The notes below the pieces were generated by a model. It did not search any database and was not told the DNA's origin. It saw only the letters and a program-made list of their open reading frames with translations. Below, piece by piece: positions 62 to 63,700 of a stretch of DNA of 64,000 nt. The number at the start of each line of letters is the position of its first letter. The stretch's first letter is position 1. The position numbers were made by a program, and so were the translations under genes. The stretch is taken from contig BDIU01000350.1 of the NCBI GenBank assembly GCA_002118135.1, positions 1-64,000 of the forward strand, written 5' to 3'. The stretch is from Trebouxia sp. TZW2008. Lineage: Eukaryota > Chlorophyta > Trebouxiophyceae > Trebouxiales > Trebouxiaceae.

Positions 62-719
62 AAACTGTCTGCATTGGCACAGAAGTTTAGCTCTAAGTCT
101 GGGGATATAATCCGTTGCTTTCACCATGGGTCTTGGGCAGCCCTGGGTGCTTCTTGCAGGCTTTCCAAATGTTGCACTGCACAGTCATGAAGGGGCCGCA
201 AAAAGTGTGCTAGCCAAGTGCAACGTGTTTGCTGACAGAATCTTGATAAAGTAATATATGCTTGCAGGTTGCCTTTCATATGGCGTGCTTTGTGTGTTGC
301 TGTCACAGTATGTTGTTGCCACTGTCATACAGCATGTAACTGCTATTGTACAGTACTGTAATCAGTCTCCAGGCAGCAGCATCAGTCGCAGCACATAAGC
401 ATCTTGACCTCTTCTTCTGCCTCTCAGGAGTGACGTCATCAGGACAGGGGCTGCCAGCAATGAGTAATGGCACCATTGCTCAACCCTGAACTGTTCTTCA
501 ACTTTGCAGGGGTGACCCCACCTGGGGGTGTGCCATTACTCATAGGGGTCAGTCCAGCCCTGCTCACAGAGCGAGGCCCTCAAAGAGGCTCTGAGAAAGA
601 CTCAGGAAGTGTACGCCCATGTGGCTTTTGGGACGTGGAATCTGTGAGTGCTGAGGTAAGTGTGCATGAAGTCTTTGTGTTGAACGAAGCTGCTGCTGAT
701 GGTCGTGTTCTATCTTCAG
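62..719. other. Upstream region of the glycosyltransferase gene, no exon assigned
   Basis: The glycosyltransferase gene must have 5' exons encoding its N-terminal acceptor domain, because the first exon I can place already encodes the middle of the protein. I found no convincing exon here apart from a decayed copy of the 720-791 exon at about 585-656, which keeps a GTAAGT donor but reads poorly. The missing exons may lie before the window. Confidence 0.4.
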
Positions 720-800
720 TATGAGACTCTGCGGCAGTTTCAAGCAGTGCACAAATATGGCTTTTGGAACGTGGAACCTGTGATTGCTGAGGTGCACATG
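585..800 (+). repeat. Duplicated exon 3' end (glycosyltransferase), 2 copies
   Basis: About 75 bp covering the GFW exon and its donor is present at about 585-662 and 720-800. The downstream copy keeps the frame expected by the next exon. The upstream copy has a strong GTAAGT donor but a degraded reading frame. Confidence 0.6.
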
Positions 801-3800
801 CATCTCAGAGCTAAGTAGCAGTGCTGCTCAGGTGTGTAAAACATTGTTTTGTGGGACTGATCTGTGTCAGCGTGCTACAAGTCTTAACGTCATAACCAGC
901 TAAGTAGTGTTGCAGCGTTTGGTATTTGGCATTATACACATGTGCAGATGCTGACAGCTGGCTTGATTGTCAAGGCCGTGCTTGATGTCAAATCTGCGAC
1001 CGTACCAGGCAAACATGCCGACAGCAGCAAGCAAACATCCTGTGCAATTGCCATGCCAACCCTGGAGTGGCAAGAATTGGTAAAAACCTTGGAGCAGCAA
1101 AACATTTATCAGGTCAATCCCAAATTGTCTTTGCTTTCAGGATCTCATTCCTGAGATCCTGAAAAATGAGATGAGCTGCATACTGGTACAGTGCAAAAAT
1201 CCTGGAGTGGCAGTGAATTCAAAGCCAGATCAAATTCGACTGCCTTCAGGAATCAGGGCCTCAGGAGCTAGACAAGCTGCTGACTTTGCACCCAGAGCTC
1301 AAGAAAGGCAGCTTTGCAGAGTGGCAAGGCACAAGACCTCTAGTTTGCTTCAACTTTGGCAGCCTGGCCGCACGTGGGGTCCTTCCTGATGCCCTGCTGC
1401 TATTCAAGCTGCTATCAGAGACCCTGGAGCAGGCTGGGGCCAAGGGCATCCTGCTCACAGGTATCCTTGCTGACTTGTATTCAAACCAGCAGTTGCCTGC
1501 AATCAATTTCTTGCTGATCAGTGCATCATATATATTCAAGCTACGGACAAAGATCCTGGAGCAGGCTGGCGCTAAGGGCATTCTGCTCACAGGTGCCCTT
1601 TCTGCGTCAAAGCTGTTGAACATCAAGCTGTTCTTGGGGACTGCTTTTCGATTGATGCATGCTACATGTGCCCGCAGCTCCGTTTCTCTTTTCTGATGTG
1701 TTGTGACCAGATCCAGCTGAAGCTTGTGAGAGCCTTGTTTTGGTCTGATTATGTGAATGAGCAAACTTATGCCTTGCTTGGAACAGGATGTAATATTGAC
1801 AAATGCTTTGTCTTGTTTAACCTTGTGCGCAGCATCAAGCTTGTGGCAGCATCTTTTGTGGCACATAGCAGATGAAGGCATGCAGCAATTTCCCAGCTTC
1901 TGATGCAGAGTGGTAGTAGAGTCTTGCCACTTTATGCTGAGTCCTCTACATCTACAACGGACCAAATGATGTGAGACCACGTTTGTCACAATGGTGGTTA
2001 GTTCAGGTGATTCCATGCAGGCATCAAGACTTGTCAACGGTGCAAGCTCACTGAATGTGTCAATCTCACAGCTGATACCTGTATGTGCAGAGAGGTACAT
2101 GTTGCTGTTTTGGACACCTGGCTATCAGGGATGGGTCAAGCAGACCCCCTCCTACTAGGTGACCTGGCCACCTTTTCAGACTACCCTCTACTACTGTACC
2201 TGCATGGTCGATGTCCATACAGAGCTTATGTATGTGTGCAGAGGGTTTCATGCCGCTGTTCTTTGACACCTGGCTATCAGGGGTGGGTCAAGCAGACCCC
2301 CTCCTGCTGGGTGATATGGACACCTTTCCAGACTACCCCTTACTTCTTTCCAAATGCAGTGCATTTGTCCACCACGGCAGCAGCACAACAGCAGCAGCTG
2401 GCTTGGCAGCTGGCCTCCCCCAAGTGATTCTCCCTGTCACAGCTGAACAAACAGCAATGGTACGTTCCTGAGTTGTGAAGTGCACGATGAGTTCTCCCCA
2501 TATAGTGCAGATGTGTACCATGGCAGCAGCACAAAAGCATAGCTGGCTTGGCAGCTGGCCTGCCCCAAGTGATCCTCCCTGCCACACCTGACCAACAGCA
2601 ATGGTGAGTTCTTGACGTGTGAAGTGCATGTGTGCACCACGGCAGCAGCAGCATGACAGCAGCAGCTGGCTTGGCTGCTGGTGTTCCCCACCTCATGCTG
2701 CCTGTCACAGCTGAATAAACAGCAGCGGCACATTTCATTGTCATCTTGGTGTCCACAAATTCAGACAGCCTTGAGCGCATAAGACGATGCACTTGCAGCT
2801 GCCCGTCTTGTTGTCTGACGCTGTGTGTCTGATGCTGTGTGCATGTCTGATGATTTGTTGTAAGACTGTGCGTGTCTGATGCTGTGTGTGTCTGACACTG
2901 TGTGTGTAATTTGTGCATCTGAGGCCATGTGTGTCTTATGCCTCGTATCTGATGCTTGTCTCTGATTGTTTGTGTGTCATATGTTGTGTGCGTTTGATGT
3001 CAAGCAGACAGGCTAGTCCAGCTGGGAGTGGCACTGCAAGGAACGAACATTCAGACAGACTGTTGGAACTGACACATCTGCAGAGGGTGGAGTGAGAGAG
3101 AGAGGGATGTCAAGCGGACGGCTAATTCAGCTGGAGGTGGCACTGCAAGGAACAAACATCCAGACAGACTTTAGGAATTGACATACCTACAGAGGGTGGT
3201 GTGGCTGGATGCTGTGTGTATCTGATGCCATGTGTGTCTGACAGTGTGTGTGCCTGATGCTGTGTGTGTCTGATGCTAGGCAGACCGGCTTGTCCAGCTG
3301 GGGGTGGCACTGCAAGGACCAGACATCCAGACGGACACATTAGAAATCGATTCTGTAAATGAGGATGGTGTGGCTGATGCCAAACTCTCTACAGCTGCAG
3401 AGCAACTTGGGGACAGTCTCAAGGTTGGCTTGCAGCTAAATGCTGCTGTGCACTTCATAGCTGCAGTCATCATTACGTGGCTGGCTTTGCCGTTGGCTGG
3501 TCTGAAGAAGCATCATGCAAGTATGTATATCATTGTGTATCATGCATGTATAAATCATTGCGCATCATGCATGTATATGTATCTATATCGTTGTGTGGCA
3601 CCTTATGCTGTTGGCTGGTCTCAAGATGCATTGTGGATGCATGCTGCAGCTGACAACAGGTCAAAGATCCTATCATCATTGCATGCAGTTAGGCTTTTTG
3701 TTTGAACATGATGTAACTTGGCGCATGTCATAAATGAAGTTGCTATTGTGTCGCTTTTACGCTGACATCTTGTCTCAAGAGGCATGTTGCAGTTGAGGCT

Positions 3801-4567
3801 GGGCCACAATTCCAGCGTGTGTTGCAGGTGGGCTGTGCTGCATTTCAGTGCATATGTTGGCTCCTGCTCAACACAGCTCAGTACAAACGGTTGAGGACAG
3901 CACAGGACCGAACTGGTTGGAGACAGTTGATTGCTCCAACACATACCTAGCTGGGCCTGCTGAGCCTGTCTGGCACACGTCTAGAAGGAGTGCATGAATG
4001 AAGTAGCTCCTGTCGTTGTTGTGCTGCAGGCTGCGCTGTCTAGCAACTTGCAGCAAGCCTGCAAAAAGCTGCAGAAGCAGGTATCTCAAGAGGACAGCCT
4101 GCAAAGGGCAGCAGACCTCACCCATCCGCATGTAAGCATATATGCTGCCAGTCCCTGCCTTGACAGGCTGCAACTGAAAGCGTGAAAATTGTTTTGCAGG
4201 CTGTGCTGTCTGGCAAGTTGCAGCAAGCCTGTCAAGAGCTGCAACAGCAAATAACACAAGCAAACGGCCTGCAAAAGGCAGCTGATTCTGTCCACAAGCA
4301 TGCAAAGCTACATGCTGCCAGTTCCTGCCTTGACAGGCTGCAACTGAAAGCGTAAAGGTTGCGCTGCAGGCTGCGATGTCTGGTAGCATGCAGCAAGCCT
4401 GCCAAGAGCTGCAGAAGCAGGTGTCACATGAAGACGGTCTCCAGAAGGCAGCAGACCTCATCCACCACCATGCAAGCCAACATGCTGCCCACCCCTGCCT
4501 TGATAGGCTGCAGCTACCAACAGGCACAGCTGTTGACAGCTCAGCTGATGCAGATGACCCCAGCCAG
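720..4567 (+). CDS. Sterol 3-beta-glucosyltransferase-like protein (GT1), 5' partial
   Basis: Transfers a sugar from a UDP-sugar to a lipid acceptor, probably a sterol (family knowledge). Exons: 720-791, 1250-1460, 2242-2459, 3280-3423 and 4370-4567; all phases join (0,1,0,0,0). The order matches the C-terminal donor-binding half of sterol glucosyltransferases: a GFW motif, then RPLVCFNFGSLAARG (the family's Pv-FGS segment), an EQAGAKGILLTG strand, then FVHHGSSTTAAAGLAAGLPQ, the nucleotide-sugar loop, followed by ADRLVQLGVA and a helical HEDGLQKAADLI tail. The canonical loop is HHGGAGT, so HHGSSTT is a variant. Without splicing at 4567 the last exon runs to a stop at 4742-4744. If the 4567 donor is used, the frame continues into the FkbM exon at 4855. 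Introns contain duplicate exon fragments and a LINE end (3885-4003). Confidence 0.82.
1401..1600 (+). repeat. Duplicated exon 3' end plus donor, 2 copies
   Basis: The last about 60 bp of the 1250-1460 exon with its donor recur at about 1533-1600, again encoding EQAGAKGILLTG followed by a GT. The second copy has no matching upstream exon half, so it is a decoy 5' splice site inside the intron. Confidence 0.75.
2081..2735 (+). repeat. Exon-junction duplications flanking the UDP-sugar-loop exon
   Basis: The exon start (acceptor plus the FDTWLSG segment) is present twice, at about 2081-2170 and 2233-2330. The exon end (HHGSSTT loop to donor) is present three times, at about 2353-2465, 2508-2612 and 2624-2735. 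Only the 2242-2459 combination reads in frame with both neighbours. The later copies have in-frame stops. Confidence 0.8.
3003..3345 (+). repeat. Duplicated exon start (DRLVQLGVA exon), 3 copies
   Basis: Segments beginning at about 3003, 3111 and 3277 share the AG acceptor plus the start of the exon for ADRLVQLGVALQG. The third continues into the full exon 3280-3423. The first two break off after about 70-80 bp and carry stops. Confidence 0.78.
3885..4003 (+). mobile_element. LINE 3'-end fragment (family A), + orientation
   Basis: This segment, starting near GAACTGGTTGGAGACAGTTG and ending in a short GAAT-type tail, is closely matched at 5651-5752 (+) and at 9925-10020 (-). Several same-family 3' ends with tetranucleotide tails indicate 5'-truncated non-LTR retrotransposon insertions. 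This one lies in a glycosyltransferase intron. Confidence 0.6.
4020..4520 (+). repeat. Tandem triplication of an exon with its intron flanks, about 170 bp period
   Basis: Copies start at about 4029, 4199 and 4370. Each contains a CTGCAG acceptor, an exon encoding a QQACQELQKQ-like helix, and a conserved trailing segment. The third copy is the one whose frame and length fit the model. Copies 1 and 2 end in early stops (near 4185 and 4354), so they would truncate the protein if included. Confidence 0.82.
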
Positions 4568-4854: not shown

Positions 4855-7711
4855 GACTACATCAGCTTGCCCAATGGCTGGCAGGTAGTGCCAACAGCAG
4901 AGATGGAGGGCTTCTTCATCTGGAATGAGATTTTCAGGCAGGAATGCTACATGCAGCATGGGCTGCAATACAATGAGGGAGACATCATCATGGATGTTGG
5001 CGCAAATGTTGGTGAGTCCTGCTGCTTTAATACATGACACTGTCATGTGACAAACCATCATATGCGAAGCCTGACCTGATGATGCTTGTGCTGGTGGTGG
5101 CTGTGGTGGTGGTGGTGCTGCTGCTGCTGATTGCAGTCACCGCAAGCCTGACCTGGTGCTGGTGCTGGTGCTGGTGCTGGTGCTGGTGCTGGTGCTGGTG
5201 CTGGTGCTGGTGCTGGTCTTGGTGCTGGTGCTGGCTCTGGTGCATGCTTCAGCGTTGCTGCTGCTGCTGCTGCTGTGACTATATGCCCCGGCAGATGCAG
5301 GGAAAGTCTCCTTTCAGCAAAACAGAGGCTTTGCTGTAGGGCAACTTGATTCTGGGCTTTGAGGTCAGGCATCAGTGACAAGGGGTGAAAGCTCTGAAAT
5401 CTTTGTTGCATCCATTTTGGGCTGCTCTGTCAGGCATGACACAAACCCAAATCTCCAGTTCTGTGATGTGGACAGCTGTGGCTTTGCTGCAGGCCAATTC
5501 ACATCTTGGGCTCTGAGGCCAGGCAGAAGTGGCAAGAGGGGAGTGCCTAGTCAAGTGTTTGCGGTTGAGCCCTTGCACCAGAACCTGACAGTCATGCAGC
5601 ACAACCTCAAGCGCGAGAGCCTAACAAGCCAGGTATGGTTTAGCTTAGCACATGATCGAACTGGTTGGAGACAATTGATTGCTTCTGTACGTATCTAGAT
5701 GGGCCTGCTGAGCCTGCCTAGCCCACGTTCACAATGAATGAATGAGCCAGGTGTCTCATGATGCCAACCTTGGGCTGAGAGCACTGCAAGCCCGGTGTGT
5801 CGTGAAGCTAAACCATTTGTTGCAATGACTGCAAAGCTGAGCTGCTGATGCTCAGCTTCTCTCAGGGTTGAACCCCCATCAGCAAGCCAAAGATCAGCAT
5901 GGTCGCAGGTTCATGTAATTCCAGCAGCAGAGGGAGCAAAGCCAGAAGAGCTCAAGTTTTGCTACTGCCCAGTTGTGCAATATCACTTGCCAACTGCAAC
6001 AGAAGCGTGACGCGCAAGGCAAGGCAAATAATGCCTTTGATTGGCAAGCATCAGAGCAGTATGTGTGCAGGTTCAAGTCATACCAGCAGCAGTGGGAGCA
6101 AAACCAGGGGAGCTCAAGTTCCGCTACTACCCAGTCATGCCTGGCAGTTCTACCTGCCATGTTCAAGAGAAGCTTGACTTGCAAGGAGATATGATGCCGG
6201 ACTACTTCTTCCAAGATGCGCAAGACGTTGTGTGTCCTGTGACGACCGTCAGCCACATCATGCGTGACTACAGTATCCAGCATGTTGATCTGCTCAAGGT
6301 GAGTTAGCCTCATGCCTGGGTGGGTCTTTCTATAAAGATGCCCAGGACGTTGTGTGTCCTGTCACAATTGTCAGCCACATCATGCGTGACTATAATATCA
6401 AGCATGTTGATCTGCTCAAGGTTATGCCAGACTTCTTCCTCAAAGGTGCTCAGCGTGTTGTGTGTCCTGTCACCAATGTCAGCCACATCATGTGTGACTG
6501 CAACATGAGGCATGTTGACCTCCTGAAGATGAGCCAGCAGCTGTGCATTTGCTGGGCTCCTGCACTTTTTCATGGTTCATCTTGTTAGGCTATGCAACGT
6601 TCTGGCTGTTGTCAGCTTATGCAAAACCAGTTGATAGCTTGCTGCTGCTGATGGAGCTTGCAGACAAGGTCAAAAGCTGTGAGCAATGGTGCCTTGCGGT
6701 CAAGTAGCTGTGACAATTCTGCTGGCATCAATCTTACACCTGTGCCAGCCCGCTTGTCTTCTTTGCAGATTGAGCAGTGCCAAATCAGCGGCCACATGTA
6801 GATCTAATCACAGCTTGTGCTGTTGCAGATTCATGTCGAGGGCAGTGCCAAATGAGCTGTCACATGTGGATCTAATCAAGATGTGCACTGTTGCAGATTG
6901 ATGTTGAGGGCAGTGAGCTTGAGGTGCTGCAAGGAGTGCTGCCTGAAGACTGGGCGTGCATCAAGCAGGTACACAAGCAAGCATGCCAGAGTTGATGTAT
7001 TCCCGCACTCTGCTTAGCACTGCGCTTGAAAATCAATCCAGAAGAGGTCTCTCTAGGTTCAAAGGTGCTGTGCCGGTTTAGCACAGATCCACGTGCGATA
7101 CATTTCTGACCTACAGTAGCATGTCGTCATGGGGGCACAATACAAGGCAGCTGTTGCTGCTTGCATGCGCTGCATCACTGTTGATCATCAGATTTGTGCA
7201 TGTTGCAGAGTTTGTGGTTTACGTGCGAGCCTTGTGTGACTGCTGACAATATTTCAAATGCCTGCAATTTGGACAGCCCACACGGTACATGCTGACAGAG
7301 TTCTGGCTTGGCAAATACGGCTTTCCAGCTCTGTGGCCAAAAAGTCAGCTACATAGCAGCGCAAAGACAATTTCTGACCGCTGCTAATCGTTCCATGGCA
7401 AACAGGTGTGTGCAGAACCGAGCTCTGCAGCTGTCACGCATTGCACATGCTTGACAGTGCATAGGCTTGTCAAGTCATACAACCAGGCAAGCTGCAATTT
7501 GCCGGCAACAGCACTCATCAACCTGCTTCATCATCAGCATCAACATATACAGTGTGAGTGCATGCAGGTTGTGCTGGAGTTACACGATGTGGAAGACCGT
7601 CTTCAAGTTGCTACAGCGCTGCTAGAGTCCCACAACTTCAGTGTTGTCACTGCTCGAGACTTGCCTCCACAGAACGTCATGATCTATGCCAAAAAGCCTC
7701 AAACTCTCTAG
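4855..7711 (+). CDS. FkbM-family SAM-dependent methyltransferase
   Basis: Class I O-methyltransferase fold of the FkbM family; the substrate is unknown. Exons: 4855-5011, 5493-5632, 6071-6298, 6897-6968 and 7568-7711 (stop), with all phases consistent; they encode 246 residues. Visible motifs in order: DYISLPNGW and an EIFRQECYMQHG segment, the SAM-binding DVGANVG, VFAVEPLHQN (end of the second strand), YYPVMPGSST, HVDLLK then IDVEGSELEVLQG (the classic FkbM C-terminal motif), and VVLELHDVEDRL. The first exon has no in-frame ATG before its acceptor, and the conserved domain begins right at its 5' edge. The true start must therefore lie in an upstream exon, possibly in the glycosyltransferase (phase 0 to phase 0). 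Confidence 0.88.
5146..5250 (+). repeat. GGTGCT hexanucleotide microsatellite in an FkbM intron
   Basis: About twelve near-perfect GGTGCT units, followed by a short GCT run near 5254-5275. The long Cys-Trp (+) and Pro-Ala (-) reading frames here are artefacts of the repeat. Confidence 0.9.
5330..5575 (+). repeat. Duplicated start of FkbM exon 2, 2 copies
   Basis: About 80 bp around the acceptor and start of the 5493-5632 exon is present in diverged form at about 5337-5410. The upstream copy has lost the reading frame. Confidence 0.7.
5651..5752 (+). mobile_element. LINE 3'-end fragment (family A), + orientation
   Basis: Matches the fragment at 3885-4003 almost throughout, starting at GAACTGGTTGGAGAC, and ends in AATGAATGAATGAG, a short GAAT tail. 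It lies inside an FkbM intron. Confidence 0.62.
5904..6160 (+). repeat. Duplicated start of FkbM exon 3, 2 copies
   Basis: Acceptor plus about 90 bp of exon start occurs at about 5904-6000 and 6068-6160. Both copies open with a valine-rich strand (VHVIPAAEGAKP versus VQVIPAAVGAKP). The second leads into the complete exon. The first diverges after about 30 codons. Confidence 0.8.
6210..6530 (+). repeat. Triplicated end of FkbM exon 3
   Basis: The segment encoding VVCPVTTVSHIMRDY and HVDLLK is present at about 6222-6298, 6346-6423 and 6453-6529. The first copy has a normal donor (AAG|GTGAGT). Later copies keep the coding similarity but have weak or no donors. Confidence 0.82.
6767..6910 (+). 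repeat. Duplicated acceptor/start of FkbM exon 4
   Basis: TTGCAGATT followed by the start of the VEGS-encoding exon occurs at about 6767, 6832 and 6892. Only the last leads into the full 6897-6968 exon. Confidence 0.6.
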
Positions 7712-8505: not shown

Positions 8506-12107
<3,602 letters not shown>

Positions 12108-23400: not shown

Positions 23401-24631
23401 CACAACTGTTGATGCTGTTTATGAAGGGCGGTTGCCAAGTCCACTGTCCACTCATGAGCTTGCTGTAATGTCTCACACCTATCAATGCTGAGTATCAGCC
23501 CTACACCAATGGGGTGCTGCTGTGTGTCTGGCAATATGGTTCCTTGTCTTCACAACAAGAGACACCAGGGTCAGTCACACAGAAGCACCAATTGCAATGC
23601 CGTGAGCAAATCGTGATCAGACCAATTGGAATGACATGCCGCATGTGATTTGTCCTGCATCTGTGATGCCAGCTCCACATTGCATCATTCACAATGGTCA
23701 GGTATGGCTTCTGCAGCATGTGAGTATGTTTGCTCTGTGTTGTGCACCAGCACCAGCATGCAATGCATGGCAACAGTCATGGGTGTTGAAGGATTTTGAG
23801 CACACCTGAAGCCTGAAGCAATTTGTATTCCTCAACGCCTGCCAGCACTGCTTGGCAGTATGATGCCTTGGTCATGTCATGCTCTGGCCTTGCCTGTAGG
23901 AAACAGTGTCGGCAAACTTTCAATCCCCTTTTGCTAGCTTAAAGCATTCTCAGCAAAGAATGACAAACACCCAAAACACTTGAGACCTCTATTTTTGGGG
24001 TTTTGCAAGCCCCATTGAGTTTTGCAACAGGTATAAAAGCCAACACTGGTAGCAAGTGCGGTGACGCAAATTGCAACAATTGCAACTTCTTGGGTGCAGT
24101 TGCCCCAGCAGAAAAACGTTGGTGCACACCAAGACTGCTGCAAGGATGCAGTTGTACATACCTTGGGAGTCGTTCTGAGTTCAAGGTGCACGATGTTGTC
24201 AGCAGCACAGTCTTCAATGACTTCCCTTGTAATTCTGGTAATCACAGCATGGCTGGTAGTGATGGTATGTATGACTGCGAACAGCTTGAAACCTTCCGGC
24301 AGAGACCTTGTTCCTGCCAACAGGAGCTTGTGTGAATTCAGCACGCGGAGATTGGGCACTGTGACACCTCGCTGTGCAGAACGTACCGCTCTTCGACAGA
24401 AAATGAAGCTGTTCGGGGCTTAGACCTTGCTTCTCGGCTAATTCTCTGCATGCAAGGTGGGTTTCGGCGTGAGTTTCTTTGCACTAATGGGCGTATAGCG
24501 AAGCAGTCGTGAGCCTCTCGCCTGATTGTGCTGTCTCTGATGGACCCGTTCAAGTGCGCGTGCAGCTCGACCTTCGGCAACTGTCGACAAAAGCGCAATT
24601 GGCCCTCTGAATACGGCAGTGCAACAGCCAT
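20483..24631 (-). CDS. ADAL: N6-methyl-AMP / adenosine deaminase-like protein
   Basis: Zinc aminohydrolase of the ADAL/MAPDA group, which deaminates N6-methyl-AMP to IMP. Exons (5' to 3'): 24631-24522, 24445-24368, 24306-24162, 23893-23806, 23343-23114, 22654-22456 and 20697-20483. All phases join, giving 354 aa, the usual length. Catalytic motifs: [10 protein letters not shown] (His24, His26), [15 protein letters not shown] (His214, Glu217) and VVLCTDDSG (Asp292/Asp293). The first intron appears to use a GC donor (CAG|GCGAGA). The exon 3 acceptor is an AAG rather than the usual CAG and is the least certain junction. The 1.8-kb intron 6 opens with three further copies of exon 6, and exon 5 has two partial copies. 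Divergent from the DDHD lipase gene, 276 bp apart. Confidence 0.94.
21655..21745 (-). repeat. Homopurine tract in deaminase intron 6
   Basis: About 80 bp of almost pure A/G on the plus strand, so a long polypyrimidine run in the sense of the deaminase transcript. It is about 1 kb upstream of the last exon. Confidence 0.7.
22010..22590 (-). repeat. Four tandem copies of the deaminase exon 6 core, 141 bp period
   Basis: Copies (in transcript order) end near 22456, 22315, 22173 and 22032. Each encodes [19 protein letters not shown], then [11 protein letters not shown], followed by a GTCAGC donor. The first three copies are in one continuous open frame of 47 codons each. The fourth has shifted frame and its donor GT is AT. 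Only one copy is needed by the family alignment, and any of the first three donors gives the correct phase for the last exon. Confidence 0.9.
22905..23535 (-). repeat. Partial duplications of deaminase exon 5
   Basis: The functional exon is 23343-23114. An upstream partial copy (about 23530-23400) holds only the first half ([15 protein letters not shown], then a GTAAGT donor). A downstream partial copy (about 23075-22905) holds only the second half and reads ITLRAADV where the functional exon reads ITLHAAEV, so the zinc His and catalytic Glu are lost. Confidence 0.88.
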
Positions 24632-41640: not shown

Positions 41641-41659
41641 AAGCTAATAAGGTGGTAGC

Positions 41660-41820: not shown

Positions 41821-41829
41821 TTTTGGGTG

Positions 41830-47451: not shown

Positions 47452-50400
47452 CTATATGCCCTGCCGCCTTTTGTACTCACTCAGCGTGAGTAGCTTCTTC
47501 ATATTGAGGTCTGCTGGCACAGCAACTTGGCTGGGCACAAAGCCGTACTGAGGACCCAACAGCTTCCTAGCCTTGATAGCGCCCTCTGGGATGGAGTCCA
47601 GAACTGATATGTCAATCTCGAGATTGGTCACATCGCCATTTGCATTTGTGCGCACAGCTGCGGCTGGCACTTCAAGACCTGCCAGGCTCATATTACCTGC
47701 AGCAGCAAACACATGCCATTGGATGCTGCCTGCTGTGGGTCAGCAGAAATGGGAAAGAACAGTCAATTTAGCGCTTTCCAGGTTGTTGACATTTTCATTT
47801 GCATTTGTGCGCACAGCAGCAGCAGGCACTTCAAGACCAGCCAGGCTCAAATCACCTACAGCATCAAAGACAGCTCAGCATTTACAGTGACCCGGCATGC
47901 TTGCAGTATGCACGACAGCTTTACAGCAGAAACTGCAAAACCAGTCTCCACAGTGTGCTGCTACCTTGATAAGTGGGCAATTGTGCTAAGTAGGTTGGCA
48001 AGTTTTGTTCATCAGCAAGCAAGGCAGAACAGCTTGCTATTTGGGGAATCTCAGAAAGAGGCTGCTCTGCCTTGACTGCCTGTGTTGGAAAGACATATGT
48101 GGTAGAGAAGCAATGACACACATGTGGTCATGAGCTTGCTAGATGCTGTGGCTATGAGATGCACAGTAAGTCTGCCTGTGGTTCCTGCTTGCAGCATAGC
48201 CATCCCCATTAGCTTTCAAAGTTTAGCTTTTATATCTTGGGCAAAAGAGTGTCCAAAGACATTCACCAATGCCGAAGCCGATGAATATGCTTAGGATTGC
48301 AGCAATTTGTTACAAGGTTCGATAGCATCTGTGGCTGGCTGCTCAAAGTTTAGCTTGGACAGATAGAGCAGTCCTGGATAGATACAGTCAGAAGATGAAA
48401 CAGTGAGTCTACCTGTGGCTCCTGCTTGCACCATAGCTGTGCCATCCTCATTCACCTTGACAACAGTGCCAGCAGCTGCAGCAGCAGCTTCCAGCTCATC
48501 CCTCTTGCTCTTTGGAATGGTGCTCCAGTACACCTTGGATTGAGTCTTCCGCCTTGAGAAAGCATCAGCTCCTGTGGCACTCACCTATACAACAGAAAGT
48601 TGACTCATTACTCACAAGCGCAGTGGGGCAGACAATGAACACAGCAGCAGCAGTAGCAGCAGCAGCTTCCAGCTCGTCCCTAGTGTTGTTGGGGATTGTC
48701 CTCCAATATACTTTGGACTGAGTCTTTCGCCATAAGAAGGCGTCAGCTCCTGTGGGACTCTCCTGCAAATCAAACTCTGGCCAGTCAACATGAAGCTGTA
48801 ATTTTGGCTGCTTCTGCTCACAATGATGCCTATGTTACGATGCCTCACGGCGGGGCATGTGCTGGGTGCAATCTGCTGCAAGCGTGCTACCTTATTGTAA
48901 GGGGCATGGCAGGCTGCTGAACATATGCCTTGCTGCACGATAGTAACTTTGCAGACCACACTAGTGCAGACATTGCCTAGATAGGACCAGGTGACGCACA
49001 AGGCATATGAATAGAACTTCTGCTTGGCAAGTAACAGCACACCACAGCCGCCAGTGACAGGCCTTGATAGCAGCAATGCAGCAGACAATGATTGTAAAGC
49101 GGGCGGGATGTCAACTCACCTTCTGGTTCTCAGGAGCTGAGGACACGTTCTTATAAGCATTCAGAAAGTTTATGCGCTTGTTCTTCTCGTTGACATTGCT
49201 CATACCAAAGCCTCGCCTGTTGGCCTGGCGGTCCACATTGGCTTGCCTGTTCTCAAGCTGCGCCAGAGCCGTCTCAGCTCTGCAGCACAACAACTAAGCA
49301 TGAAAAGCGGGGTACATTGGCATATTTCTGTTGTAACATTAGTCATGCTTCTTGTAGCATAGTTGCACACATCAGCTTCTGCGAGTGGCGGCTGTCCATG
49401 TGAGCAGGTCGCAGGCCATCAAGAACAGAACAGCAGACTCTGCTCAGATAGCTGCTGTACACTGCACAAACACAGCAAACATGTTGTTAAGCAATCTGTA
49501 GAAAGCTGCAACGGTTTTGTTGATAGGTCCACAACTCCAAAGGCACCTTTGCACGATGGAGCTGTATAGGCTCAAAACAGTTTGAGAAAGCTGACCACAC
49601 CTGGCTTGCTTCTGGCATTTTACATAAATTGTGCAGTAGTCTAACTGTCTATACTTGCCTGAAGCAAGAAAAGCACAGCAGTGTGAGACACTTCAAAAGT
49701 CGGCAATCTAGGCAAGGGCACAAAGCAACGCTGCATGGACATCACAAGCGATGTTGGCAGATAGTCACCCACCAGCACCCTTCTCAGCAGTGCTATCAGC
49801 CATTCACAGCATTGCAACTCTATCATCAGCCATTGAACACACAAATCTAAACATATCTTCCTGTCAGCTCCATTCCCACACACTACACGCATGGATGAAG
49901 AATCTACCCACCATCAGCAACCAGAGGCTTACCTCTTCAAGTCGTCAACATTGCCGAGTTCCTGGGCAGGAGCACAGCAGATATGGCAATGCAACCACAA
50001 TAGGACAGTCTGCTCACCATAGGACAGTCTGTTCACCAGTAACAACCAGAAGCTTACCTTTCCATGTCATCAATGTTACCCACTTCCTGAGCATGGTCTC
50101 GTTCCCTGATCAGGCGGGCCTTCTCAGCAGCAATGTTGATGCGTGTGGCGCCTCTTGCCTTCTTGTCAGCCACCATCTGCTTCACATCGGCTGCTGAGTA
50201 TGTGTAGCTGCAGCAGAGATAGCAGGTTTTCAATACAGCAGCAATCACAGCTGTTGACAGGGATTGTAACTGCAGCAGGAAATTGCAGCAAGTTGCATGC
50301 ACATGTTCAGCTGCAGCAAGGAAAGCGCCGCATCAGGGTGTAGCTGCAGCAGAAACAACAAGTTGAGTGATCACATGTACATGACTTCTTCTTGAGCAAT

Positions 50401-50994
50401 AGCAGCTGTTGTGTAGGTGTAGCTGCAGCAGAAACAGCAAGTTGTATGCCAGACATGCATGATGTGTTGCAGAGCAGACACAACTTTCATCAGCTGATGT
50501 GGAGATGTGAAGGGACCAAAAACGGCATGGCATGAACTGCCCTGCAGTTGTTGCTGCAGCACGAGCAGATTGCTGAGCTTCATGTCTCTTCTCTGCTGCA
50601 GAAAGATGGATCTCAGCTTGCAAACTGCTTGCCGTGCGTGCATAAGGTGTTGCCAAGCAGACACAGCAGCGCACCAGATGGAGAGAAGATGTGCATGCAG
50701 CAGGGACAGCATTGCACCAACTGCTGTACAGCTGTATCCGCAGCAGAAACAGCATGAGGACATCTATGTATCTGCTGCAGAAACATGGATGTCGGCTTGC
50801 TGCTTCTGCCGCAGCTGCACCTACACAGTCATTGAGGGATAGCAGCCGACTGCATGCCTCACGCACAAAACTTGTTGCTGTGCAGACGCAACAACTCATC
50901 AGCTGCTGCGGCAGAAACAACAAGTCGAGATCACACTTGCGTGATGTGTTGCTGCACAGACAAAGAATGTCACTGGTATTGGATGTAGCTGCTG

Positions 50995-51025
<31 letters not shown>

Positions 51026-54000
51026 TCACCAACTGCAGTGTAGGCGCAGCTGCAGCACAGAAAGCAGCAGCAACATCCTGTTTGCCTTGCCTGCTTTATT
51101 GCTGAGCAGATGCAGCTACGGGAGCAATCAACCCAGCATTGGCTAGCACCTGTGTCAAGCATCGTCTATGTGCTGAAAGAGACTGAGGGAACATTTGTGG
51201 ACCTGAACGCAGGCCTTGTGCATACAGCTGCAGTAGGTGATCAGTGACGCATAATGCATATGCCTGTACAGATACAGGCACCCCACACACGGCCACAGCT
51301 CACTTTTCAGCATTCTTCAACAGTGCTTTCTGTTTGGTGACATGTGACCGAGTGATGGCAGGCATGCGCTGATTGTGATTGTATTCACTCAGGGCATTCA
51401 GCTCTCCTCCATCAATGTCTTTGTTGGACACCTGGCTCATAGGACAGACTCTGTCGCTGTTACCACGCCGGATCAGGAGCACCTTGCGCGTCTGGACGGT
51501 GCCAAAGGCGTATGGGTAGGTCATGGTCACTCCCATGTCCCTGCAGACACAGGCAGGCTGATCTCGATTACCTTGATCGCTAAACGCAGTTGCTGTTGCC
51601 GCGCTGGATATAAACACCATGTGTGTTATGACATTGACAAAGGCATATGTGTCCTGCAAACATTGTTTATGAGTAACAGTACAGGGTAGCAAGCAAAGCA
51701 ACTGTCAGCAGGCCCTAATGATTGTCAACGTCTTTGAAGCTGCTGTCTATCTCAGGCTCTTGCCTTCCTTCTGGCCGCTGTTGTTCACCTCCAGCTGTCG
51801 CGTTTCTCCTAACAGCTGCTAGTACCACAAGATACTGTTTACCTCCTCAGGAGGCTTTGCCTACCTACCACCCCTGACTAAACCCCCCCCCCCCTCTCCC
51901 CCCCTCCAAGCTCTTAACACTTCCGACTCTGCAGCTGAAATCTTTGCAGTATGCAGATGAGCGCATTGCTGTCACTCAGGCAAGCAAGCACAATCAGGCA
52001 TGGCACAACAGGAATGGCATCAAGATAGGGATGCAAGTGCTGTGCTTCTGACATGCTTCTGTAAGCCTGCTGTGCGTTTTTGTCTTTGCTTGGCAGAGTT
52101 GCTTGCATCAGCGCTGCCAAGCATGGATGTTCGGTTTCATCAACCATCATCATCACCACCATCATCATCATCACACACTCCAACACATGTGCTAGGTGTG
52201 TGTGGCCCAAGTCTTGTCTCGCCAGGCAAGCTTGTTCTGGGCATCTTTGGTGGGGCGTCTGATAATCAACTTTGGAAAGTCAGACAAAACAATGTCGTTC
52301 ATGTTGGGTTTGGGAGTGTTAAACCAGACGTCTCAACAGGGCTGCCCTTGCACACAGCCGTTGGCCATGACCTAGACAAGTGCAGGCGCAACAGCTCATT
52401 CTTTGACTCTTGAGCTGCCAAGTACACAGCCACAGGCAAGAATGCTACAACATGCAGGGGCAAGTGTTTCTGTCTGCGTTTGAAGCTGACCTGGTTTTGC
52501 CTGGTTTCTCTCGCATATTCACAATCTCTGCAAGCTTTGCACAGCCACAGGGCATGAGTTCACAATGAGCAGGGGCAGACATCACTGTCTGCATTGAAAG
52601 CTGACCTGTGCTTGTGTAGGTTGCAGTCTTGCACGTCCTCAACCTCCGCAGTGTTCACACAGCCACAGGGCATGAGTGCACAATGTGCAAAGCAAGAAGC
52701 AGTGTAAGTGCACTGAAAGCTGACTTGTTCTTGCCTGGTTCCTGTTCCTGTACATCGACAGCCTCTGCAATCTTTCCACAGCCACAGGCCAGAATTACAC
52801 GATGTACAGGGCAAGAAGCAGTGTCTACAATTGAAAGCAGACCGGTTTTTGCCTGGCTCCTGTTCTTGCACGTCCACAAGCGATGCAATGTGTACACAGC
52901 CACAAGCCAGAAGCACACAATGTACAAGGGCAACAGCCCACTTGCCGGTCTGAGAGCTGACCTGTGCTTTCCTAAATTCCCGTTCGTGTACACCTACAGC
53001 CTCTGCATTCTTTCCACAGCCACAGGCCAGAAGTACACAATGTACAGGGCAAGAAGCAGTGTGTCCATTGAAAGCTGACTGGTTTTTGCCTAGCTCCCGT
53101 TCTTGCATGTCCACAACCGCTGCAACAATCACTTACCCACAGGGCATGAGTGCACAAGGTACAGGGCAAGAAGCAGTGTCTGCATTGAAGGCTGACCTGT
53201 TTTTGCCTGGTTCCCGTTCTTGTACATCCACAATCTCTGCAATGAGGTACTTGCCGGCATAGGCAACCTTGACCAGGCAGCCAATGATGGTCTTATCAAA
53301 GAATGGCTCGTTCACCCATTTCTCTAGCTTGTAGCGCTTGATTTGCAGGTCATATAGCTCTTTGTTGGGCGCTGGCTGGTCTGTATCCTCATCCTGTACA
53401 GGGTGATACAAAACAGTGAGTAATGAAGCTGAATAAATGCAGCCCTACCAGTGTTGATACAACAGCAGCGACTGCAAAGTGCGGCTTGTGTGCCGTACTT
53501 TTTGTCACTTCTGCGCGTCAGAACCATTGGAGACGTGCATCACAGGAGCAATTGCTGTCCATGTGCACAAATCACAAGCTGATCCAACTGTCCTCGGCAT
53601 GACAAGGGTCAGATAGGCCCTTCATGCAGTGTTTGCATGAAGGCATGTGCATGATTCACGGCAGATTACACATTGTAGCACATACTGACAGTGTGTACAG
53701 CAGCATGAGTGCATGGTGCAAGTTTGTAAACCAGCCCCTGCCAACACAAACACGTGTGGCATAAGGCTGGATACCATGTCCATATCAATGGCAAGCTCTC
53801 CTCGGCCTCTGTCATCCCGCCTGTCCGACTCCCTCCTGGCATCACGCTCCTCGCTGCTGCCCCTCAGAGGTGACGGGCCTGCATTGCAGCAGAAAGCCAT
53901 GATGTTTTCATATTCATCAACTTTTGATGCTGACATGCCAGTGGACACTTGCATGCCTTTCAGACTTGCAAGGCAGATTTACAGACTTGCAAGGCAGATT

Positions 54001-56447
54001 TACAGACTTCACTTGAGTGCATGAGTTGGTTGAATGGCTCACATGTTGTACAGACGGATGCTCATGTCATAAGTAGATGTAAGCTCTAACATAGTTGAGG
54101 CAATGCAGCTTAACATGAAACATGTGTCTTGTGCCTAAAACGATACCTGCAATGACGTTCACCTGAGTTGCCAATCCAAGAATATCGAGAACTACCAGAT
54201 CTGACACAGCAGCATGCTCAAGCTGCATGTAGCCAAACACACGGGCTTGCAAGTGGTTTGCAGGCAGCATCAAGCTCATTGCACGAGCACACCATGGGCT
54301 GATGGAATGCATTGCAGCGCTCATGGTGCATCATAGGCATTGCTGGAGCATGGGACGTTGTCTGAATTTGAAACTTTCGAGTCCACTTGACTATAGCCTG
54401 CATGTCTCAGCCCTATGGCAGGGCCTGTACCACTAGGGTTTGACATTGCGACTTTACGATAGAGGGCAGTGCAAAGACATATCAAGTTCAGCCTCATTGT
54501 GGTACACGCGCGGCCATCACATTATGCGGTGTTGTTGACATGCAGACCAACTGTCAGCACATTACCTGCTGAAAGGTCATCTGCTGACGCCTCTTGGGCT
54601 GAGACTGAGGGCATGCGCTCATTGTCAGAGTCAGACTCGCTGATGTCTTCATCATCTGTGTAAGCTTCATCGCTATCTTGTCCTCGACCCTTGCGACCCT
54701 TTCTCCTGAAACAACGTACTCTGCTAAAACAGACACAACAACTGACAGCACACACATCTTGCATGTTGTGGCCTGCAACATGCTGAGACATTGTAAGATG
54801 CCTACAGGCCCAGACATATACATGGAGAGCACAGATGCACACCCTGACACATGTGACTGCCAACAGACATCAAGACAAACAGGAAGACCCTCCCTTGCAG
54901 ACCTTCTCTCAGCAATATGCAATTACGCTAGGATAGATATATTGACTCACAGTACATACCTTGACTCCTGTGGATGCCGACAAACCTACCAAGGGATGTG
55001 GATACATGCAGCACCGTAAGCTTGGCATTGAATGGCCTGACAGATTCATGATCACACGCTGACAGGTCATTCAGAAGCAAAATAAGTTCTGTGTTTTTGT
55101 ATTTATGACAAGGCCAAGCAGAAGAGCGTGCATGGGTTTATAACGGATGCTGTCATTTCATTGCTGGTGAAGGTCTAACAGAAGTTACAATGATGGTGGT
55201 TTTATGTGCAGCACTTATGCACACTCCACAACAGGTAGCCTGGCTGCCTGACAGCAGGGGTAGCACCCAATGAGCACACTCAGGCTTTCAGGCTTGCGCA
55301 CTTACAGTGTAGAGTTTTGTGGATGTTGATTGCTGCTGTCTTATTCAAGTGTTGTGTCTTACCTAGCCTGCTCCTTGCTTGTTTTGCGCTCTTGCGCTTG
55401 GCGCCGCCTTTCTTGCAGCTCCGCCATGGCATTCTTTTTGCCTGTGTTGGCCGTTTTCTGCCTGGTTGAGGAGCGCATCTGGTCAGCTTTGTCTGCTGCA
55501 CTCTGCAGGCAAACAAACATGGAATCAGCGCAACAGAAGCATTCTTTTTGCCTGTGTGAGCTGTCTTCTGCCTGATTGAGGAGCGCATCTGGTCAGCTTT
55601 GTCTGCTGCATTCTGCAAAATGGTGTCAGTGCAACCAAAGCATTCTTCTTGCCTGTGTTGGCTGTCTTTTGCCTGGTCGAGGAGCTCATCTGGTCAGCTT
55701 TGTCTGCTGCACTCTGCAGGCAAACAAACATGAAACCAGTGCAACAAGAGCATTCTTTTTGCCTGTGTTGGCCGTCTCCTGCTTGGTTGAGGACCGCATC
55801 TGGTCAGCTCTGTCTGCTGCATTTTACAGGCAAATGAAAACGGAATAAGCGCAACAAGAGCAACAGTGCACTCGATTTGCTTGGCGTGATGTATCCAGAT
55901 ATGCCCTGTGCTTCCATGCCTCTACTTGATTTTGCCTTCCAGGGACAAAGCCATGTGCGCAAAGCATTGGGCTGCTTATTGCAGGGTAGCAATGCTGTAC
56001 CTCAGTCTGAACAGGTGCTTGCTTTGCTCTAGACTGCTGCATGAGCCTTGCATTGTTTCTCCTCTCAAGCTCCCTGTCCCTTGCTTCTGCACGCTGAAAG
56101 AACTCCTGCTCCCTTTCAAATTCCGTCAATTGGTCTAGCGCTGCCTTGTCAGCGCTGTCTCTGATCAAATCTTTGCCGTAGCCGTCAAATGTGAAGGTAT
56201 CTGGGTCAAAGTCATCTTCCTGATCGTCTGGTCTGTTGTCGTTGTCTGTTTTGCGCTTTTTGTTGGCAGCTTTGGAGGTTCTAGCTGGAGCTTGATACTC
56301 TTGTGAAACCTCCTCAGAATGCTGCGAGGCTTCCGGTCCTGAATCATCTGAAATGCTCGTCACGCGAGATCGCTTGTTTGCTGGCCTGCCAGCTCCGCCA
56401 GCCTCCAGCAGCAGATCATCCAGGTCGTCGCTGTCGGACCCAGCCAT
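47452..56447 (-). CDS. RTF1: RTF1, Paf1 complex subunit with Plus3 domain
   Basis: Nuclear transcription-elongation factor of the Paf1 complex (VIP5 in Arabidopsis). Exons: 56447-56001, 55502-55363, 54705-54566, 53878-53775, 53393-53197, 51540-51304, 50207-50058, 49279-49120, 48584-48413 and 47696-47452. All phases join, giving 663 aa, in the family range. An acidic N-terminus (MAGSDSDDLDDLLLEAGG) leads to a charged helix with FEREQEFFQRAEARDRELER, then NTGKKNAMAELQERRR and acidic SESDSDNER. The Plus3 domain (about residues 283-410) includes KRYKLEKWVNEPFF, GCLVKVAY, LIAEIVDVQ, FGTVQTRKVLLIRRGNS and VCPMSQVSN. The tail has NYTYSAADVKQMV, EKARLIRERD and SKVYWSTIPKSKRDELEAA. Almost every intron starts or ends with duplicated exon-junction copies. 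Confidence 0.95.
47690..47860 (-). repeat. Duplicated start of RTF1 exon 10
   Basis: The start of the last exon (LSLAGLEVPAAAVRTNAN) is present at 47696 and, with substitutions, at about 47860-47770 in the intron before it. Confidence 0.82.
48410..48770 (-). repeat. Duplicated RTF1 exon 9
   Basis: A partial copy at about 48765-48650 reads TGADAFLWRKTQSKVYWRT against TGADAFSRRKTQSKVYWST in the used exon. It loses similarity after the DELEAAAA stretch. Confidence 0.85.
49933..50060 (-). repeat. Duplicated end of RTF1 exon 7 with its own splice sites
   Basis: A 29-bp mini-exon (49961-49933), bounded by CCCAG and GTAAGC, copies the exon 7 end (GNIDDME becomes GNVDDLK). Spliced after exon 7 it would put TGA in frame. 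Confidence 0.75.
50197..51065 (-). repeat. Array of acceptor-region copies before RTF1 exon 7
   Basis: Minus-strand TTTCTGCTGCAGCTACAC-type segments, matching the exon 7 acceptor, recur at about 50207, 50345, 50425, 50735, 50915 and 51050 with other shared intron sequence. The real exon is the most 3' copy. Confidence 0.72.
51866..51910. repeat. Poly-C/T tract in an RTF1 intron
   Basis: About 30 bp of almost pure C with a few T on the plus strand, that is, poly-G on the RTF1 sense strand. It is intronic. Confidence 0.8.
52130..52310 (-). mobile_element. LINE 3'-end fragment with GAT-type tail, - orientation
   Basis: The minus strand reads NDIVLSDFPKL, IIRRPTKDAQNKLAW and RDKTWATHT then a stop, like the fragments at 59000 and 10300. 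It is followed by a GATGATGATG tail (plus-strand CATCAT at 52140-52173). It lies in the RTF1 intron after the Plus3 exon. Confidence 0.7.
52440..53265 (-). repeat. Seven tandem copies of a Plus3-exon end plus intron start
   Basis: Units of about 114-120 bp begin near 53185, 53071, 52951, 52831, 52715, 52597 and 52483. Each includes the end of RTF1 exon 5 (EIVDVQEREPGKN), a GGTCAGC-like donor and about 75 bp of intron with CCACAGGGCATGAG. The most 5' copy belongs to the complete exon. The others are truncated exon ends with diverged coding sequence. Confidence 0.93.
55363..55830 (-). repeat. Four copies of the start of RTF1 exon 2
   Basis: Acceptor plus AADKADQMRSSTRQKTAN and GKKNA occur near 55825, 55712, 55615 and 55502, period about 97-115 bp. 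Only the last copy continues into a full exon. The other three stop after GKKNA and rejoin intron sequence. Confidence 0.92.
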
Positions 56448-60576: not shown

Positions 60577-60798
60577 CGAGGAGCTAATGACGTCTTCAGC
60601 AAAAGAAGCCGACAACCTCGTGCATAGTGACGCAAGCGCGACTGCAAGCTGAGAAACACTTTGTGAGAGAGTGGTCTGGCCATGGCTTCGGAGCCAAAAG
60701 CTGTGCTGCGTAAACGCGCAAGTATGCTATGTTACGCCCGCAAGCGATAAGCCTGGTGCTGATGCTGCATAGTCAGAATCTGGCACAAAACTGGGCCC
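60577..60798. promoter_or_regulatory. Divergent promoter region (SEC-C-like gene / FHA gene)
   Basis: About 220 bp between the likely start codons of two genes pointing away from each other. No core element identified. Inferred from layout. Confidence 0.4.
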
Positions 60799-63700
60799 AT
60801 GTCAGCACTGCAGGCTAAGTACATCCCGGCTTGGGTCAACGACCCACCGCCAGATCACTCTCACTATGTTCTGCAGCTACTCGACGCAGACCGACGGGAA
60901 CTCAGTACCAAGGCGATTTTGTTCGGACGGGTTGAGAAAGTCTGCGATGTGGTAGTGAGCCATGTGTCGAGCAGTCGGGTCCATGCCTGTGTGGGCTTCG
61001 ATGCTTCCGGGACTCTTCAGCTTGCAGACCTTGGCAGCACGCACGGTATGCCGCTGCGGCAGCAAGGATTGTGCATGCCAGCGCACTCTCATCTGCTCGA
61101 GTAGCACGTCTGTGCCATCAGACTGCGGGCTACCTGCTTCTGCCAGTTCAGAGCTTTCCTGCACTGAACTGCCGCGTCAAAACACCTCTAGACAGCGCGC
61201 AGATGGTTGTGAAAACATTTTGTATCCTGAGCCTGGCTATCAGCATCACCTGCATCTACACATGGGGTTGTGGGTGTATATGCACACACCTGTGTCAATT
61301 TTTGCAAGCCAATACTACAGTTGGACAGTAATGCAGACATGGAAAGTCGCCACACTTACATGTTGCATCACATAGTCTATGTATTTGTACTGTAGTCAGT
61401 AATCCACTCAAACATTGCAGCCCCTCAAGATATCCATTGGCTCTGGCCAGGCACAAGACATGGGCAGCATGCATGGCCATGATGCATAACACTTCAGTGA
61501 TGTTCTGCACTGATTGCAGGGACCTTTGTGAATGGCGAAAGGCTACGCAAAGGGGAGCGTCGTGAGCTCAAGGTTGACCATGACACCATCTCTTTAGGGA
61601 TCTCCCCAATGAAATTCAAGATCATTGGTGAGTATGCAATGTGACCAAATCCCATCATCAGTCGTGCAACTTGTATCCAAAGCATGTCATGCAGCTTCCA
61701 CAAAGCAGTTGCAACACGTGTCTTGATATTGTCCCAGTTGGCATGTGCATGCACATACAGTTGTGCAGGCTGTAAACTGCATGTGCCGGTTTGCAAGCAT
61801 TGTTGCATGCAACAGATTGCGACTATATAGATATATCCACCTGTGTGTATGTCGGACCAACATAGTACTAACAGCAGCCGTATCCCTCTATTCCTTGAAG
61901 CAAGTTCACGCTTACTGTACATGTTCTTCTTGCAAGTCTTGAATTTGCATGCAATGCAGGTCCAGACAGCCCTTCGACAGCTGATGCTGCTGACATTCAG
62001 CCTCCCAAAGACAGCAACACAGCTGACAAGACTGCTGCAAAACCCTCTGACCCTGTCAGCATAGCGAATGGCCACCCGGCCTTTCCTCAAAGACCCACAT
62101 CATCAGAGGATGGGCCAGCCACTGCAAATGACACAAGTCACAGCCCTGACCAGCAGGCTGCTGCCCTTGGTGAAAATGCTCCGAGCAATGATGACAACAC
62201 TCTTGTGACTTTAGACAAGCATGTTGTGGGAGAGGAGCTTGATGCAAGGGCTTTGACAGGACAGCAACAGCAGAATGACGGCACACCTGCTGCTCCCCAC
62301 CCAGATGCTGAGCAGCAAAGCAGTCACCAAGTCTCAAGCATGCATGTCGTTGGTGAGGAGCTTGACACCAAGGCCTCAGACCATCATCAGCAGCAGCAGC
62401 AGCAGCAGCAGCATGACAAGCTCAGTCTGGCTCATGCAGATGCAGAAAGACAGAGCAATCAGGCTGCTCCTGAACATGTTGTTGGAGAGGAGCAAGACCC
62501 AAGGTCAACAGGGTCTGATGGGCGTCGACCAACCCCCCGCCAGCCCTCCAAGGGCCCCCAGACTGCGCATAAGTCACCAGGTAGTCATCACACTGCTCTT
62601 CAAACAAGTCAAGATGGGTTTGTGCATTTGTTGGAGCTGCTGTGACAGCCAGAGGCACATGTGCTGTCATGATGTAGCTCGTCAAGTTGCCTGTTGAGTC
62701 TGGCAATGCCTGTGCAGCATCGTGTGTATCCCTTCAATTGCAGACAAGAGCTTGACAGCAGCAGCAGCAGCAGCAGCAGCAACAGCAACAGCATCAGCCA
62801 CTAACAGTTGACAAAGTTCCAGGCTGTGAATTGCTTGTAGGATAGCAGCAAGTTGCGTCAACTGCTTGCAATCTTTCTGACAGCTGGCCTGCACATTATT
62901 CACAGTGGTACGCTGCCTGTCAACATGAGTCTCTACCTCTGCCTCATCTCAAACTCCTGTCACAGCGCACTGATACTAGCTGCCATGGCGATATGGCTGG
63001 CAGGCATCAGAATTGTGCCATGCAACAAAGTTTCAAGGCAGATGATGCAGGGGCACAAGCTTCCTTATATGCGTCATTTGTCTGTGATTAAATTGAGTTA
63101 GTGTATTGAGGTCATCAAGGCATTGAGACCGAACTAAAAGCTGCACATTCTGCAGGGGCACATGCCGACAAACAAAATGCAACACTCACGTGCGTTTGCA
63201 TTGAGACAATGTCTTGAGGTCATCTCAACTTCCGGAGAGAATTGACTGCTGCAGGTTATGCAGGGGCACACGTTTTCACACAAAATCCAACACCCATCTT
63301 CAACGTCACAAACGTGATGGTTTCAGGTAGCTTCAGACATTCTGACTCAGCATATTTTGCAGGGGCACATGTGGACATAGAAGATGGAGAAATGTCTGGA
63401 GACAAAGCTGGGGACACGCTTGAAGAAGCAGTTGGGGAGACACCAGCAGCGCCTCCTCTGCTGCTGCAGCTGCTGCCGCTACTGGAGATGCAGAAGTACG
63501 GGTTGATGCTGCTGATGGAGCTGATGACCTACACACCAATCATGTACTAATCTGCAAAGCCTTCAGGCAAAATGAGTTATTGTAAATGCTGCAGAGGCAC
63601 CTGCAGATGTAGAAGATGGGGAGATGCCTGTAGAAGAAGTCAGGGAGATGCCAGCACAGGCAGAAGCTGCTGCTGCAGCTGCTGCTGCAGCTGCTGCTTT

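Follow-up and report, generated by a model that had tools for sequence, protein, structure and literature searches.

Why do the ends of exons in a lichen-alga genome recur, with their splice sites, inside the introns beside them? The question was raised by a stretch of 64,000 nucleotides of Trebouxia sp. TZW2008 (contig BDIU01000350.1, positions 1 to 64,000; called the window below), in which a first-pass annotation had noticed short tandem copies anchored on splice junctions in unrelated genes and had proposed a recurrent process able to create or lengthen introns and to supply alternative exons. In the sampled part of the genome, roughly a quarter of the predicted exon edges are present a second time, splice site included, in the intron next to them, at a distance of some 150 bases. 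We read the arrays as fossils of recurrent local tandem duplication with a unit of about one nucleosome (median 142 bp) that mostly spans an exon-intron boundary, and we give this reading a probability of roughly 60%. The clustering of arrays at predicted junctions, the unit length, the near-neutral state of the copies and, for one gene, the single copy in related proteins were computed directly.

The sample consisted of the window and 20 stretches of 10 kb from 9 other contigs, which makes 264 kb in 12 blocks of a 68.5-Mb genome. A small hidden Markov model gene finder converged on the donor MAG/GT and the acceptor TGCAG/G and called 404 exons with a median length of 114 bp, the median intron having 353 bp; comparison of gene models with related proteins was made for the DDHD gene only. 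Among the predicted products, FkbM, adenosine deaminase, glyoxalase, Plus-3 (RTF1-like) and FHA matched Pfam above the cut-off, and DDHD was identified via related proteins. The gene list of the first-pass annotation is therefore kept for FkbM, adenosine deaminase, RTF1-like, FHA and DDHD; its glycosyltransferase-like and HPPD matches fall below the cut-off and its SEC-C gene was not identified. Arrays were defined as merged direct repeats from self-BLAST with a score of at least 50 and an offset of 30-500 bp, and 128 arrays hold such nearby copies in direct orientation, as internal gene or tandem duplication would leave them. Local direct repeats scoring at least 40 occur in 11 of the 12 blocks, the exception being the 10-kb block C376b, and a dinucleotide shuffle (one per block, 12 blocks) gave no repeat with this score. 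The self-search is blind below 60 bp and short periods were taken from Tandem Repeats Finder instead; a minimum unit of 60 bp, apparent at first, was rejected as a detection artefact.

The arrays were found to gather at splice junctions. In the 264 kb, one or more predicted junctions lie within 111 of the 128, where 2000 shifts give an expectation of 73.9 (standard deviation, sd, 5.3); among arrays in genes the figure is 111 of 123 against 78.8 for random placement within genes. The window has 33 arrays, 28 of them with a predicted junction (one doubtful, at 30853-31151, where the micro-exons are without orthologue support), and 28 of its 29 genic arrays have a junction where 18.0 (sd 2.6) are expected from random placement within genes. 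The other 20 stretches give 83 of 94 genic arrays against 60.1 (sd 4.3), and arrays occur in unrelated genes across 11 of the 12 blocks; the pattern is thus recurrent and not confined to the window, as had been suspected. Two-copy genic arrays taken alone hold a junction in 60 of 69 cases (35.5 expected). Wholly exonic arrays are rare, 2 of 128 here and 3 of 42 in a further sample of 90 kb, which covers 30 other loci as 1.5-3.1-kb pieces around dispersed repeats, outside the training set. Of the intergenic bases 3.8% lie in arrays; for exons the share is 24.7% and for predicted introns 24.1%, a value that fits the earlier proposal that duplication lengthens introns.

The unit length is equally characteristic. 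BLAST array units have a median of 142.5 bp (quartiles 123-174), ranging from about 60 to 300 bp, with 2 to about 9 copies per array, where 60-225 bp and 2-7 copies had first been estimated. Because detection improves with length, the drop-off above the upper unit lengths is real. Tandem Repeats Finder gave 116 non-overlapping arrays in the 264 kb, and a junction was present in 27 of 28 with a period of 100-249 (17.6 expected), in 5 of 76 below 60 (10.8 expected), in 4 of 10 at 60-99 (3.5 expected) and in 0 of 2 at 250-499 (1.6 expected). Minisatellites have a unit of roughly 10-60 bp; a minisatellite identity was rejected, the arrays forming a separate class by period and by junction overlap. 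The tight unit length and the lack of a junction pattern in short tandem repeats go beyond what had been noted before.

The copies were also sought from the exon side. In a sensitive alignment of exon ends with the adjacent intron (match at z >4), a copy was present in the following intron for 64 of 230 donor-side ends, and 51 of 218 acceptor-side ends have one too, against about 2% in controls with the wrong end of the exon (2 of 117 and 3 of 122); the same test gave 91 of 533 intron segments and 6 of 190 intergenic ones. A wider scan counted 67 of 259 donor ends and 58 of 256 acceptor ends, at median distances of 157 and 153.5 bp. When the introns were tiled, 207 of 1302 pieces had a copy, 73 exon-like and 134 purely intronic.

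Related proteins were compared at two loci of the window. For the DDHD gene, exons were placed by tblastn with P0121, with the Trebouxia proteins P0122 and P0123 and with the Myrmecia protein P0124; P0121, from a 3990-bp contig, appears to be transcript-like. A segment present in five copies in the window occurs once in each of P0121-P0124, and other decoys, as we call the intronic copies of an exon edge, lie in this gene at about 25905, 26653, 27456, 29093, 29558 and 31585. The open frame of the array at 1401-1604 matches P0150 (91%), P0151 (75%) and P0152 (49%), each over under half of the query, and the exon end is present once in each. In P0150 and P0151 the translated intron after the exon end resembles, by eye, the sequence after the decoy here and not that after the exon; in P0152 the sequence is like neither. 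Because the exon end is single there and the following intron in P0150 and P0151 resembles the post-decoy sequence, the decoy is absent from P0150-P0152, judged at protein level and at this one locus, and it may never have been gained or may have been lost by recombination between copies. In a search for paralogues in the own genome, the matches listed came from the window itself or were dispersed repeats of short length, and no relatives were found in the viral and prokaryote collections. As a separate observation, two exon ends placed by P0121 in the DDHD gene are followed by GC, at 27967 and 26449, and copies of them have GT.

The anchoring on junctions stands; its cause we infer as follows. 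Each duplication would put an additional exon end or start, and the splice site belonging to it, into the intron alongside, and because splicing would keep using the original copy the event would be nearly silent. A duplication lying entirely within an exon would disrupt the protein and disappear. The arrays would subsequently grow, shrink or decay and the intron would lengthen. The DNA event may consist in re-copying about 140 bp by polymerase backtracking or staggered-break fill-in, and it may be favoured at transcribed exon edges, since modelled selection and decay leave part of the junction excess unexplained. More tentatively, Trebouxia may possess a duplication process that is aimed at exon-intron edges and in which a stretch of transcribed DNA about one nucleosome long is copied again across the boundary. 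With decoys at roughly one junction in four and as much as a quarter of intron DNA in arrays, such a process could be a main engine of intron growth in the lineage.

Several results weigh against this reading, and they are given here with the explanations they favour. The junctions are predictions of a gene finder trained on the same 264 kb and are not RNA-based, and the link to nucleosomes or replication, drawn from unit size alone, is a lead only.

The first alternative, which we regard as possible and rather unlikely, is that duplications fall randomly in genes and that the junction pattern comes from survivorship and from the slower decay of pairs with one constrained exon. The scarcity of wholly exonic arrays agrees with it, constrained pairs are detectable for longer, and purely intronic copies are common. 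In the further 90 kb only 31 of 42 genic arrays have a junction against 26.4 (sd 2.8) expected (p 0.07); the short pieces there hinder gene finding, and the unit length is clearly repeated (median 145.5). This explanation was simulated with 6000 uniformly placed tandem duplications of the observed units, loss of the exon-internal ones and neutral decay. A junction was held by 43% of the detected arrays against 87% observed, the simulation counting junctions per unit and the observation per array. Because of these different measures a matched test was made, in which the ratio of exon-end matches per junction to matches per intron tile was predicted as 0.71 overall and observed as 1.61 (fixed match threshold in the simulation, z threshold in the observed counts); the excess is smaller than in the first simulation and in the same direction. 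The matched prediction spans 0.51 for young copies (t <0.1), 0.58 (t 0.08-0.16) and 1.22 for old ones (t 0.15-0.3), so that the excess depends on the assumed age. With simulated pairs sorted by age, junction fractions of 0.68-0.93 were reached only at t > about 0.2, with quartile identities of 71-79%, whereas two-copy arrays with short likeness have a median identity of 85.6%. The ratio of likeness to offset has a median of 1.0 (whole unit) in the simulation and 0.6 in 72 observed two-copy arrays. A model of random duplication in which exon-internal events are lost and copies decay neutrally therefore under-predicts the junction excess, by an amount depending on age; it is also at odds with the short tandem repeats, which do not show the pattern. 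The anchoring that the first-pass annotation had singled out as the unusual point thus exceeds this model.

A second alternative, which we consider improbable, is that filler or mobile elements insert and duplicate the target exon end on both sides, giving copy, non-homologous spacer, copy. It is favoured by the sharp end of the likeness, 2-31 bp into the intron, in 45 of 77 single-junction pairs; in 32 the likeness continues. Long intron-side likeness, as a wholly homologous unit would give, is thus present in those 32 and mostly not shown for the other 45. Identity on the exon side is 0.85 (donor) and 0.82 (acceptor) and falls to about 0.61 at 15-45 bp into the intron, the null being about 0.5. 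At 1461-1532 the sequence is unlike that after the exon in P0150 and P0151, which the post-decoy sequence resembles. In a first test 24% of 55 spacers resembled neighbouring sequence at p 0.05; among short-likeness pairs it was 4 of 30 at p 0.05, or 3 of 33 when the first 12 bp were dropped. When 43 intron remainders were fitted, 8-14 agreed only with duplication and 14-22 only with unrelated sequence, by setting: 8 and 21 at a low indel rate (1 both, 13 neither), 14 and 14 at a generous one (8 both, 7 neither), and 9 and 22 without the first 12 bp (8 both, 4 neither).

Against inserts stands the character of the spacers. Introner elements are intron-associated repeated DNA in algae; unlike them, each array here copies its own exon, and comparison of 41 spacers with each other gave no shared family (best E 0.02 over 16 bp), nor any sequence shared among unrelated introns. 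An element family was rejected on this ground. Three spacers searched against the genome match only themselves, and the spacers are intron-like and T-rich on the sense strand. A source in the sample is missing for 31 of the 41; the other 10 have matches, 8 of those with local copies. The unit length is similar in both single-junction groups (means of 155 and 141), like that of clean tandem arrays. Nine arrays were read closely, and several showed decoy deletions and older third copies; these explain part of the misfit to pure tandem duplication, and we read the spacer mismatch as layered duplication, deletion and decay.

A third alternative, very unlikely in our view, takes the copies as functional alternative or mutually exclusive exons, a role that the first-pass annotation had offered. 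Some decoys are in frame and are called exons by the gene finder, and pairs of two called exons differ by 0.251 at codon position 3 and by 0.122 and 0.109 at the other positions. The counts for intronic copies, in which several high-scoring segment pairs per array were included and which are not independent, run the other way. Exon and intronic copy differ at 742, 652 and 1120 of about 4805 sites each for positions 1, 2 and 3 (0.154, 0.136 and 0.233), and this fits a free copy beside a constrained original. Gap openings amount to 1.06 per 100 sites between exon and copy against 2.03 between two non-coding copies, only 21% of gap lengths are divisible by three, and copies have frameshifts and some stops; constraint on every copy is not what the codon positions and gaps indicate. 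The decoy GT is retained in 73 of 112 intronic donor copies and the AG in 72 of 108 acceptor copies, at about the rate of the adjoining bases, and the extra copies are missing from the related DDHD proteins. The copies look like dead decoys drifting near-neutrally, and alternative exons were rejected on the codon pattern. As to gene conversion, which might keep decoys young, mismatches are only weakly clustered (z 0.15, standard error 0.15, against -0.27 to -0.04 simulated). Besides, 23 of the 112 intronic donor copies carry GC, and GC donors may be common in this genome.

Intron gain through tandem duplication of an AGGT segment, also proposed earlier, is highly improbable, since no array gives a clean new intron running from the GT of copy 1 to the AG of copy 2 with the length of the unit, and the donor-acceptor alignments are confined to C124 (1) and C155 (10). 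The C155 array (11295-12199 of the joined block, L027:1295-2199), which we take to belong to an acetamidase/formamidase-like gene, does have donors aligned with acceptors, the intron length matching the offset; on inspection it is a single exon end repeated about 9 times head to tail, its junctions being GT or GC, and the gene finder calls alternate copies introns. The C124 case has unequal lengths and comes from the set of repeats with offsets of as much as 500 bp. Intron gain was rejected on this inspection.

The preferred reading of recurrent local duplication has known relatives. Internal gene or tandem genomic duplication (Rogers 1989; Gao and Lynch 2009, as cited in PMC4974935) also yields short intragenic tandem segments, some crossing exon-intron boundaries; here, in contrast, a narrow class of about 120-180 bp occupies about a quarter of tested junctions, with dead-looking copies and no intron creation found. 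In potato RdRp a single tandem duplication across an intron-exon boundary gave a new intron (PMC4974935); the segment likewise crosses one boundary and carries splice signals, whereas here there are many events and no new intron was seen. A known route to small tandem duplications at staggered breaks is fill-in by Pol alpha-primase/CST, described in the excerpt of PMC8355091 for Cas9 nicks in mammalian cells with no junction preference mentioned there. Searches of the open-access literature gave no account of junction-anchored arrays in Trebouxia, and titles and abstract beginnings gave none of such a genome-wide habit elsewhere; in PMC11523091 the words intron, tandem and exon are absent, and in PMC12712428 intron occurs once and tandem and exon are absent. 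Relative to known internal duplication, the novelty lies in the unusual density, the unit size and the junction association.

Intron growth and the tolerance of genomes for decoy splice sites have mostly been inferred from rare single events, and 354 kb of one genome provide 170 arrays (128 and 42). As the copies and their distances are visible in the arrays, retention, decay and splice-site competition could be measured genome-wide. The arrays also matter for annotation, gene callers pulling dead exon copies into their models, as here in the DDHD and C155 genes.

Table 1. Repeat arrays of the window with their position, strand, gene and content
Position	Strand	Gene	Content
619..793	+	predicted glycosyltransferase-like part	two copies, exon end and donor, offset 136
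1401..1604	+		exon end and donor, offset 132; copy 2 is the decoy; single copy in P0150-P0152
2084..2347	+		acceptor and exon start, offset 151; decoy is the upstream copy
2355..2724	+		exon end and donor, offset 146
2823..3380	+		acceptor and exon start array, best offset 110, intermixed with 16-bp minisatellite
4018..4515	+		about 3 copies, period 170, donor and acceptor junctions
5882..6186	+	FkbM	acceptor array, offset 162
6194..6537	+	FkbM	donor array, offset 122
6774..6915	+		acceptor array, period 68
9613..9737	+	HPPD-like	donor array, period 64
10758..10952	+	HPPD-like	donor array, offset 124
22021..22560	-	adenosine deaminase	about 4 copies of 141 bp (exon, donor, intron start)
22912..23588	-	adenosine deaminase	exon-plus-intron copies, offset 200
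25756..25998	+	DDHD	exon end 25842; decoy 25908-25998 with frameshift and stop
26390..26723	+	DDHD	exon end and donor, 2.5 copies, period 135
27432..27785	+	DDHD	acceptor and exon start, copy upstream of exon at 27738
27843..28620	+	DDHD	exon end 27966 and four more copies near 28016-28138, 28185-28310, 28319-28456 (stop), 28520-28630
28927..29142	+	DDHD	exon end 28963 and copies at offsets 81 and 165
30853..31151	+		offset 214, 76% identity; probably purely intronic
31574..31850	+	DDHD	acceptor and exon start copied, offset 180; exon at 31756 orthologue-supported
47618..47872	-	RTF1-like	acceptor array, offset 159
48163..48437	-		short donor array, offset 237; dispersed element within spacer
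48470..48764	-	RTF1-like	exon copies, offset 178; gene finder calls both exons
49909..50093	-		weak donor array, offset 125
50337..50444	-		weak 29-bp repeat, offset 79
52422..53244	-	RTF1-like	array, period 118/237
55429..55862	-	RTF1-like	about 4 copies, acceptor and exon start, period 110
63405..63688	+	FHA	weak array, offset 208, low-complexity in part

A further array of the window, at 57516-57913 (offset 231, 88% identity), lies in a stretch that is called intergenic; this stretch has a long open frame and may be a gene that was missed. Dispersed repeats of other kinds were noticed as well. A variably truncated, retroposon-like element with an (AATG)n-type tail lies at 5635-5745, at 9919-10016 (opposite strand) and, by eye, at 3878-4003, and recurs in at least 39 other places at 89-95% identity; the window copy is placed 2 bp beyond the point where a predicted splice donor starts and is flanked on either side by GCCAGGT. 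Other dispersed sequences of 110-190 bp, mostly intronic and in many copies at about 76-92% identity, are at 10147-10301, 29623-29813, 34555-34669, 48227-48343 and 52160-52300. Positions 1-62 hold a short repeat ending in (ATTG)n that is found in at least 39 other places, of which a few lie close to the end of a contig. Two genes for desiccation-related ferritin-like proteins, located on opposite strands (15855-17035 and 44953-46285), are without arrays of this kind, and the protein of the one at about 15.8-17 kb has 80% identity to Trebouxia proteins.

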